Origin: Lachnospiraceae bacterium
GTDB lineage: Bacteria; Bacillota; Clostridia; Lachnospirales; Lachnospiraceae
NCBI GenBank assembly: GCA_015057405.1
Contig: SVEK01000004.1
Span: forward strand, 1 to 64,000
Direction: 5' to 3'
DNA: 64,000 nucleotides
Within the stretch, counting starts at the first letter, position 1. Every line of letters starts with the position of its first letter. A model generated the notes under the pieces. The model saw only the letters and a list, made by a program, of their open reading frames with translations. It did no database searches and was not told the DNA's origin. Made by a program: the position numbers and the translations under genes. Shown here piece by piece: positions 28,093 to 31,257 of this stretch.

Positions 28093-29846
28093 ACTGCTTC
28101 CTCCTTTTCTATCTGGGAATAATATATTTCTTTATAAGTATCACACGAAGTCATCAATTCATCATGAGTACCTATTCCAACCACATAGCCATCATCAAGA
28201 ACAACTATCTTATCTGCATCAATTACGGATGATATTCTCTGAGCAATAATAAGCTTCGTTGTATCAGGAATTTCTTTCAGGAAATTCTTTCTTATTATAG
28301 CCTCTGTTGCTGTGTCAACTGCACTCGTACTATCATCTAAAATAAGTATCTTTGGATGTTTAAGCAATGCTCTTGCAATACATAATCTTTGTTTCTGACC
28401 GCCTGAAACATTAACTCCGCCCTGATTAAGATATGTCTGATATCCATCAGAAAATGATTTGACAAAACCATCAGCCTGGGCATAATCTGCCATTCTTTCT
28501 ATTTCACTTATGTCTGCGTTCTCATCACCCCATCTGAGATTATCTTCAATCGTACCGGAGAACAGTATATTTTTTTGAAGAACCATAGCAACACTGTCTC
28601 GCAAATCATTCAAAAGATAATTCCTGACATTAACTCCGTCTACAAGAACTTCTCCTTCATCTGCGTCATATAATCTTGGAATTAATTGTACGAGACTGGT
28701 TTTTCCCGAGCCTGTGGAGCCGATGATCCCGACAGTCTGCCCGGATTCCACCTTAAATGTTATATCATTCAACACATTATTCTTTTTCTTCTTGTAGTAT
28801 TTAAAACATACGTTACGAAATTCTATACTTCCTCCCGTTACTTTAGGCACATCGACGCCTGATTTGACCAATTCCCTTACCTTATCATCATTAAGGTCAA
28901 TCTCGGTTGTTAACACTTCCTTAATTCTGGCTGAAGAAGCAAGTGCTCTCGAACCATTAATCATAATCATTGATACCATCATTAAAGACATAAGAATCTG
29001 AACCACATAAGTTGTAAATGCCGTCAATTCACCGATAGGCATATCACCAACTAAAATCTGATTACCTCCAAACCACACAATTGCAATAGTGGTAATATTC
29101 ATAGCAAGGGTCATTACAGGCATGGTGAGAATAACAAGTTTTATTGCATTTACCGTATTATTCTTGAGATCAGAATTAGCAGTTTTAAATTTCTCAATCT
29201 CATGTTCCTCTCTCACAAAAGATTTTACAACTCGCGCATTTGTTATGTTTTCCTGAACTACGGAGTTAACATTATCAATCTTTTTTTGCATAACGTTGAA
29301 TCTTGGAAATGCATTTTTCATAATCAAAACAATTGCCAGAGTAAGAAGCGGGATTACTACAAGAAGCACCGATGCCAAACTTGGGTTCATCACAAAAGCC
29401 ATAATCAACGCACCAATCAGCATTCCGGGTGCACGTAACATCATTCTTAACGCCATTGCAACTGTATTTTGCAGATTAGTTACATCGTTAGTAAGTCTTG
29501 TTACTAAAGAACCTGTAGAAAACTTATCAATATTGGCAAAAGAAAAACTCTGAACCTTTTCAAATAAATCCTGTCTTAAATCACCTGCAAAATTAACAGA
29601 TGCCCTTATTGCAAAAAATGCGCCGAGCACACCACCAATTAACATCAAGACAGCAGTAATTACCATTGCAATTCCGATACCTATAATATATGGTATGTTA
29701 CCGTCTTCGCTACCAAGTCCGTTGTCTATTATCATTTGTAAAAGTTTAGGCATCATTATTTCACCTATTACTTCCACTATCATAAATATCGGTCCCAAAA
29801 TAAAAGCTGATATATATGGTTTAATATATTTCATATATATTTTCAT
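28089..29846 (-). CDS. ABC exporter subunit (TMD-NBD), Walker B with Asp in place of catalytic Glu
   Basis: Walker A GSTGSGKTS, VSGGQKQR, Walker B ILILDDSTSAVDT. Confidence 0.95.
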   Translation of the reverse strand: MKIYMKYIKPYISAFILGPIFMIVEVIGEIMMPKLLQMIIDNGLGSEDGNIPYIIGIGIAMVITAVLMLIGGVLGAFFAIRASVNFAGDLRQDLFEKVQSFSFANIDKFSTGSLVTRLTNDVTNLQNTVAMALRMMLRAPGMLIGALIMAFVMNPSLASVLLVVIPLLTLAIVLIMKNAFPRFNVMQKKIDNVNSVVQENITNARVVKSFVREEHEIEKFKTANSDLKNNTVNAIKLVILTMPVMTLAMNITTIAIVWFGGNQILVGDMPIGELTAFTTYVVQILMSLMMVSMIMINGSRALASSARIKEVLTTEIDLNDDKVRELVKSGVDVPKVTGGSIEFRNVCFKYYKKKKNNVLNDITFKVESGQTVGIIGSTGSGKTSLVQLIPRLYDADEGEVLVDGVNVRNYLLNDLRDSVAMVLQKNILFSGTIEDNLRWGDENADISEIERMADYAQADGFVKSFSDGYQTYLNQGGVNVSGGQKQRLCIARALLKHPKILILDDSTSAVDTATEAIIRKNFLKEIPDTTKLIIAQRISSVIDADKIVVLDDGYVVGIGTHDELMTSCDTYKEIYYSQIEKEEAV

Positions 29847-30322
29847 GAGTCCGCAACCTCCTTATTTGCCTCTTCATTAAATCTTTCCATTGAACATTCA
29901 CTTAAATTATGGTAAATCTTTTCCAGATATTTCCCGAACGAATCAATATCAGATTCACTAAATCCCAAAAACATAACATCATCAAGCTTATCAAATATTA
30001 TTTTGCTCTTTTGTAAAACCGCTCTGCCACTATCGGTTATCTCTAACACATTATATCTGCAGTCATTTTCTTTAATATACCGGACAACATATCCTGACTT
30101 AATCAGTTTTTTAATACTGTTAGTCATCGTAGCTCCTGAAACCTGAAGCATATTAGCAAGTTCTTTCTGACTTGCTCCCGGCGACTTGACCAGTTCCATA
30201 AGTATTCGGTGTTGTGCCGGATATAAATTAATACTATTACCCGTAAGACTTTGTTCTAGAATGCATCTGCGTTTGTGAACAACCGTTAACAACCGTCTGG
30301 TTGTTTCCAGAAATTTATTCAT
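29843..30322 (-). CDS. MarR family transcriptional regulator
   Basis: wHTH (LVKSPGASQKELANMLQVSGATMTNSIKKLIKSGYVVR); 4-nt overlap with the ABC gene. Confidence 0.93.
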   Translation of the reverse strand: MNKFLETTRRLLTVVHKRRCILEQSLTGNSINLYPAQHRILMELVKSPGASQKELANMLQVSGATMTNSIKKLIKSGYVVRYIKENDCRYNVLEITDSGRAVLQKSKIIFDKLDDVMFLGFSESDIDSFGKYLEKIYHNLSECSMERFNEEANKEVADS

Positions 30323-30402: not shown

Positions 30403-30490
30403 CAACTGATTCAAAATTATAACACAATAGGATTATATTTCAAGTCACAAATCAATAAACAATTAAACAAAGTCTCTGTATATATAAAAT

Positions 30491-30590
30491 AGAATCTCGC
30501 CTGCGAGATTCTCCGCCTGCGGCGGGTTGGGTTGCATTAGCAACATTTTCCTCTCCGCCGCAGTGCGATCCTTAGCGGAGCGTTGTTAAT
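30491..30590. other. GC-rich multi-hairpin intergenic element (repeat or structured RNA candidate)
   Basis: AGAATCTCGC-CT-GCGAGATTCT palindrome; CTGCGGCGG paired with CCGCCGCAG; internal GTTGC-ATTA-GCAAC; outer CTCCGC/GCGGAG. Confidence 0.6.
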
Positions 30591-30610
30591 TTATAAGAAA
30601 GTAACAAAAA

Positions 30611-30641
30611 TGTCCTTATGTGCATATAGCACATAAGGACA
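30611..30641 (-). terminator. Rho-independent terminator of NUDIX gene
   Basis: 13-bp perfect stem TGTCCTTATGTGC-(5 nt)-GCACATAAGGACA followed on the minus strand by TTTTTG. Confidence 0.85.
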
Positions 30642-30661: not shown

Positions 30662-31114
30662 TTAGAAATACTTTCTGCAACCCCAGAGATTACTCTTTTT
30701 CAAATCAAGATATTCTGCATACGCTTTTTCTAATATCTGTTTTTCATTAACAAACTTAAGTAAATGATATGCTTCATGATACTTGTAAAATCCAGAGTCC
30801 ACAAAAAATTCCTCGCGTTGTGGTTTGCTGTAGTAACTGTCAGCCATCATAAGATACCAATGAACATCCTTCACAACTGTATCGTTCTGAGCGCTGAACG
30901 TATACTGGCTTTTACCAACATACTTGATAATTGATGCATCTGCACCTGATTCTTCCTTGACTTCACGGAGCGCCGTTTCCTTATACTCCTCGCCTTCTTC
31001 TACAGTGCCTTTCGGCAATACCCAGCCTTCGTACCTGTTTCTGTAATTCTTATACAGTAACAACACCTTGCCTCGGAATATAACCACACCACCACAGCTT
31101 GTTGCTTCAATCAT
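30662..31114 (-). CDS. NUDIX hydrolase
   Basis: Nudix box GTVEEGEEYKETALREVKEESGA; start at MIEATSCGGVV with AGGGGG SD. Confidence 0.92.
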   Translation of the reverse strand: MIEATSCGGVVIFRGKVLLLYKNYRNRYEGWVLPKGTVEEGEEYKETALREVKEESGADASIIKYVGKSQYTFSAQNDTVVKDVHWYLMMADSYYSKPQREEFFVDSGFYKYHEAYHLLKFVNEKQILEKAYAEYLDLKKSNLWGCRKYF

Positions 31115-31257
31115 TGCAATTCCCCCTGTTAGAGTTATCTTTCGACAACTTTTGGTGTGTATCAAAAAACTAGATAACATTATACCACATTTTGCAAAAA
31201 CATTTCAAGTTATTTATTGTCCGAGACACAATTTTAAAAAACCGCAGTTATTTCCCA

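Follow-up and report, generated by a model that had tools for sequence, protein, structure and literature searches.

The window analyzed here is a stretch of 64,000 nucleotides from a Lachnospiraceae bacterium (contig SVEK01000004.1, assembly GCA_015057405.1). Two minus-strand open reading frames delimit the locus of interest: a NUDIX hydrolase gene (30662..31180; Pfam PF00293, E = 2e-15) and, as the next gene downstream, a MarR regulator gene (29843..30322; Pfam PF01047, E = 9e-13). The intrinsic terminator of the NUDIX gene (30606..30641, minus strand) was recovered as an inverted repeat about 20 nt from the stop codon, and comprises a hairpin with a 13-bp stem (30611-30641) and a T-tract (30606-30610). 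Between this hairpin and the MarR gene, which starts at 30322, lies a repeat element for which the terminator is the candidate insertion target. An initial annotation had described a GC-rich, self-complementary patch at 30491-30590, outside the NUDIX terminator and upstream of the MarR gene. This location is borne out, Pfam confirms both genes, and all the named pairings are present where they had been placed. The G+C content of the patch is 56% vs 36.7% for the whole window.

The natural reading strand of the window copy is the minus strand, i.e. that of the neighboring NUDIX gene. The whole copy spans 30485..30605, with ends set by alignment with copies of the host genome, and reaches the T-tract of the NUDIX terminator (~30605); its BLAST-alignable portion is 30485-30590. 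Four minus-strand features were delimited besides a remnant of hairpin 3 (30581..30605), which has lost its left arm and loop and where locus L002 and others have TTATATAGGAAAGTTCTCGAAAAGAACTCTCCTATATAA. The core helix CTGCGGCGG/CCGCCGCAG (30517..30563) pairs 30517-30525 with 30555-30563 and contains the apical hairpin GTTGC-ATTA-GCAAC with its 4-nt loop (30531..30544). A CTCCGC/GCGGAG pair (30511..30580) joins 30511-30516 to 30575-30580; it is present in many, not all, relatives and is missing from G012-type copies. Hairpin 1 (30491..30512) forms the distal end and reads AGAATCTCGC-AG-GCGAGATTCT followed by the T-rich run ATTTTATA, the two arms occupying 30491-30500 and 30503-30512 as read directly from the sequence. 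The long palindrome, with up to 3 mismatches allowed, occurs once in the window and never in shuffled sequences. Folded as RNA, the region 30460-30620 reaches -54.2 kcal/mol (z = -5.9), and none of 200 shuffles was equally stable.

A search of the host genome and of related Lachnospiraceae, as proposed in the initial annotation, recovered the repeat in both. The host assembly (2.83 Mb, 73 contigs, ~94% complete) contains 47 matches at unrelated loci, the weakest with E = 4e-8, and four of these are identical across the aligned 85 nt. Several copies lie at contig ends, which is expected for repeats that break an assembly. The copies fall into two subfamilies whose hairpin 1 arms, GAATCTCGC/GCGAGATTC vs GAATGTCGC/GCGACATTC, differ by compensating changes, and hairpin 3 differs as well. 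The first subfamily includes the window copy, which retains a 5-nt stretch missing from the others and whose hairpin 3 has decayed. The partial copies examined in this genome are truncations only. At one host locus (L015:1501-1640) hairpin 3 is inverted relative to its siblings and its loop reads the opposite way, a pattern that flipping of the hairpin or template switching would produce.

Across the family, the element was found in 111 of 299 Lachnospiraceae-level genomes, each of the 111 representing a different genus, often with at least 10 copies. These copy numbers are lower bounds, as the covariance model, built from 28 copies, scored 13 candidates per genome. The single, unconserved sequence that the initial annotation had kept in mind is incompatible with these counts and with the 47 host matches. 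The same scan found 0 copies in G001, a genome of the host's own genus. In a class-wide sample, the 7 of 391 genomes which matched are all Lachnospiraceae. Exact-pattern matches include [Clostridium] symbiosum, Diplocloster, Eisenbergiella, Lacrimispora and Roseburia, and further matches come from a single plasmid record of Roseburia and from 33 faecal contigs labeled 'Bacteriophage sp.' without annotation, the latter possibly bacterial DNA. In a pattern scan of IMG/VR, a 16-mer gave 29 matches; the element was present in none of them. Rfam searches of the window and of eight loci gave no family for the element, and a literature search found no such repeat described for Lachnospiraceae; the family is apparently uncatalogued so far.

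The copies share a common anatomy which, on the gene strand, runs from the terminator and its U-tract through hairpin 3, an A-tract, a core of nested helices and hairpin 1 to a T-tract. The arms of hairpin 3 enclose TAGGAAA...TTTCCTA, with the T-tract on one side and the A-tract on the other. A small CTCCG segment follows, then the core CTGCGGCGG - GGAA - GTCGC(4)GCGAC - CCGCCGCAG and finally hairpin 1 with its T-rich tail. The element measures ~135-145 nt, has no coding capacity and occurs in many similar copies at unrelated intergenic sites, in the manner of a MITE. Solo copies of hairpin 3 are rare (3/115). At six loci (L102, L209, L221, L208, L201, L270), all selected by the near half, hairpin 3 and this half are kept and the end away from the terminator is cut off. 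A second core type (GCGCACTCGCGCG... / CGCGCTGCGGCGCGAG AGTCCGGC...) has hairpin 3 and the placement behind terminators in common with the first type, and the two sometimes stand in tandem (L159 and L160 in G280; L037, L048 and L054 in G004; L049 and L053 from the same genus).

Covariation among homologues, a further check which had been suggested, was assessed on 63 diverse cores with five measures and 500 shuffles. The helices do covary: 93.8% of helix cells are paired, double changes occur in 16 of 24 pairs, and no shuffle matches the observed value on any of the five measures. By helix, 94.5% of cells are paired in the core helix (helix 1 of the alignment), 88% in the apical hairpin (helix 2; double changes in 4 of 5 pairs) and 96% in hairpin 1 (helix 3; 9 of 10 pairs). 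The arms of hairpin 3 are hypervariable (170 types in 213) yet complementary, with 92.5% Watson-Crick pairing to their own partner vs 40% to swapped partners, a difference that is partly built in since the arm finder favors pairing. The idea that these arms are copies of target DNA does not fit, as they are constant within a host subfamily.

Conserved pairing of this kind in three helices, together with the stable fold and the placement of several relatives' copies shortly upstream of start codons, would suit a structured non-coding RNA, one of the two readings offered in the initial annotation, whether as an sRNA or as a riboswitch-like family. An RNA under selection is expected to favor G·U on its own strand. 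However, the fixed helix columns contain G·T (38) and A·C (43) at equal frequency, and neither strand shows a wobble preference. This equality points to a constraint which would act at the DNA level, or only during spread, although neutral decay of inserted copies would give the same picture. In addition, the element has no Rfam match, near-identical copies stand behind unrelated genes, a common downstream gene was not noticed, and both the position behind a terminator and the patchy distribution resemble those of insertions. We consider an RNA family very unlikely.

Among 254 distinct copies collected, 227 with a near-complete core and a scorable hairpin 3 were used to examine the flanks. An intrinsic terminator stands directly upstream in 188 of these 227; the controls gave 9 among shuffled versions of the same sequences, 17 among downstream flanks and 16 among random positions. 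With a stricter cut-off (score 14) the numbers are 168 upstream vs 0, 5 and 6, respectively. The contrast is large even though the scorer is our own simple measure of stem and T-tract and the copies are not phylogenetically independent. The terminators upstream of different copies are unrelated to one another. In 138 of 169 cases the gene upstream is oriented towards the element, as it is for nearly all host copies. tRNA genes precede some copies (L105, L107). The element exceeds the initial description in size and, by a wide margin, in distribution; hairpin 3, the strict placement behind terminators and the fixed orientation go beyond that account as well.

Regulatory terminators are among those concerned. 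Of the 227 copies, 11 have a T-box-type motif in the 130 nt upstream and one has it downstream, and Rfam T-box matches end directly before the element at L033 and L045. At these two loci and at L087, L088, L040 and L270, a copy sits between the terminator of a T-box (or T-box-like element) and the gene it should control. There, hairpin 1 and its T-tract would form a second terminator ahead of the controlled gene.

Such strict adjacency raises the question whether the repeat serves its host as a terminator accessory, i.e. an insulator, a back-up or bidirectional terminator or a 3′-end processing element that recombination would have spread and selection retained. Hairpin 1 with the T-tract behind it does resemble a second terminator, the helices are conserved, and hairpin 3 is retained at orthologous sites. 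These points have to be weighed against the patchy presence of the repeat, including its absence from the same-genus genome G001, against tandem arrays and truncated copies, and against the equal frequency of G·T and A·C exchanges. Where a copy lies between a T-box terminator and the controlled gene, a second terminator would be harmful, which also speaks against this reading. A beneficial accessory role is therefore an unlikely explanation in our judgment.

Orthologous sites were compared between the two Diplocloster genomes, that of D. agilis (G024) and a second one (G331), apparently D. modestus. D. modestus carries the element at L250; the orthologous D. agilis locus (L404) lacks it and shows the terminator, T5 and a downstream sequence that matches. 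In the reverse direction, D. agilis carries the element at L348 and D. modestus (L364) keeps the terminator and T7, followed by ~80 nt of unrelated sequence instead. A third pair (L258/L401) is not a clean empty site, as the sister species lacks both the element and an adjacent weak terminator-like hairpin. Three further orthologous terminators are followed in each species by element sequence of that species' own subtype, or by a solo hairpin 3; repeated insertion or concerted evolution could account for this. The element's ends, GCTTACTAGG... and ...CATTCTTTGTTC, are not inverted repeats, and the loci compared show no clear target duplication apart from the T-tracts. As terminal inverted repeats and target-site duplication were not seen, the element is MITE-like in behavior, but it is not a classical MITE.

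Its dispersal, orientation, placement and covarying hairpins, together with the comparison at L250/L404, make it likely that the repeat is a non-autonomous mobile DNA element which inserts in fixed orientation directly behind the U-tract of intrinsic terminators. Among the points against mobility, the core is conserved across genera more than a decaying element might be expected to be. Insertion directly behind the U-tract would place the element between genes, with little harm to the host. The moving enzyme may recognize the folded single strand of the element's DNA, or else its transcript, and may read the target as a hairpin with a T-tract. Since the distal end, hairpin 1 with its T-tract, has the same form as this presumed target, such mimicry would explain the tandem copies, in which the second copy stands directly behind hairpin 1 of the first.

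Which enzyme would move the element was addressed through transposase and reverse transcriptase families. REP sequences are associated with Y1/RAYT transposases. A REP/REPIN-type element mobilized by a Y1 enzyme (RAYT, IS200/IS605) would likewise be palindromic, intergenic, abundant and free of terminal inverted repeats, with a similar way of working. However, Y1_Tnp shows no association with the element: it occurs in 175 of 299 genomes (59%) and, among the 24 genomes with 10 or more scored copies, in 14 (58%), which leaves 10 of these 24 with no match. The host's single Y1 gene was rejected as the mobilizer, as it is an IS200-type copy whose end hairpins are unrelated to the element. Of the REP/MITE-like assignment made in the initial annotation, the dispersed palindromic character is strongly supported and the filing under REP is not; we regard mobilization by Y1 as highly improbable. 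The published REP/REPIN and RAYT families (GTAG- and CGTC-tagged) are short, high-copy intergenic palindromes with tandem clusters and covarying stems (PMC3733652). Our element shares these traits but differs in being three-part and ~140 nt long, and no GTAG or CGTC foot was noticed by eye at the feet of its hairpins.

A different precedent exists for the target itself. Group IIC introns are inserted into intergenic DNA right after a Rho-independent terminator (PMC8919778), which is the position observed for 188 of the 227 copies. The repeat could in principle be a degenerate or trans-mobilized group IIC intron, or another retroelement, inserted by target priming behind terminators; its A-tract could pair with the T-tract of the target, and some copies are shortened at the end away from the terminator. 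This tally of truncations is biased, however, as the loci were found via the near end. Moreover, the element measures only ~140 nt, encodes no intron protein, has no Rfam group II intron match and displays no visible GUGYG start or domain V. RVT_1 has no match in the host and is absent from 7 of 25 high-copy genomes, namely the host and six others. A retroelement origin thus appears very doubtful.

Y2_Tnp is absent from 19 of the 25 high-copy genomes, and four genomes (G120, G207, G270, G289) lack all three families. No mobilizing gene was found, as each of the families Y1_Tnp, Y2_Tnp and RVT_1 lacks a match in several high-copy genomes; the mobilizer may have been lost in some genomes. An autonomous version, in which a gene would split the near and far halves of the core, was not found in the fetched loci, where the largest gap is 64 nt and holds no gene.

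We class the repeat with the miniature mobile palindromic repeats, with an unusual target. In the part of the literature consulted on pneumococcal repeats, BOX, RUP and SPRITE are small multi-hairpin interspersed repeats of a Firmicute, SPRITE being terminator-like and RUP carrying terminal inverted repeats like those of an IS630 element (PMC3049150). BOX and SPRITE, as described there, resemble our element in size and folding. The pneumococcal repeats differ in sequence and in host family, a fixed site behind terminators does not appear in that description, and the inverted repeats given for RUP have no counterpart found in the Lachnospiraceae element. More tentatively, the repeat might represent a new class of structure-directed mobile DNA, spread through a third of Lachnospiraceae genera by a recombinase, not based on Y1, Y2 or reverse transcriptase, which would recognize a hairpin with a T-tract both as target and as the element's distal end; we rate this broader proposal as possible but not probable.

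The repeat family occupies about a third of the sampled genera of a major gut-bacterial family. Its target appears to be a structure, the terminator hairpin and U-tract, and not a sequence, a safe-site strategy which is otherwise documented for group IIC introns and would be pursued here without the known enzymes. The mobilizer would define a new targeting mechanism. The copies are also relevant to annotation and regulation, as they break draft assemblies and separate T-box terminators from the downstream gene.

The repeat may itself be a target for other mobile DNA. An insertion sequence with the end GGTTAGGGTGTCAAAA lies at 11 host contig ends (L058-L068, on C5, C9, C11, C13, C32, C36, C42, C49, C55, C58 and C66). 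In 7 of the 11, it abuts hairpin 3 of the element at one and the same place (CTAGTAA / CTATATA), which suggests that this insertion sequence prefers the palindrome as its target, with a possible 7-bp duplication.
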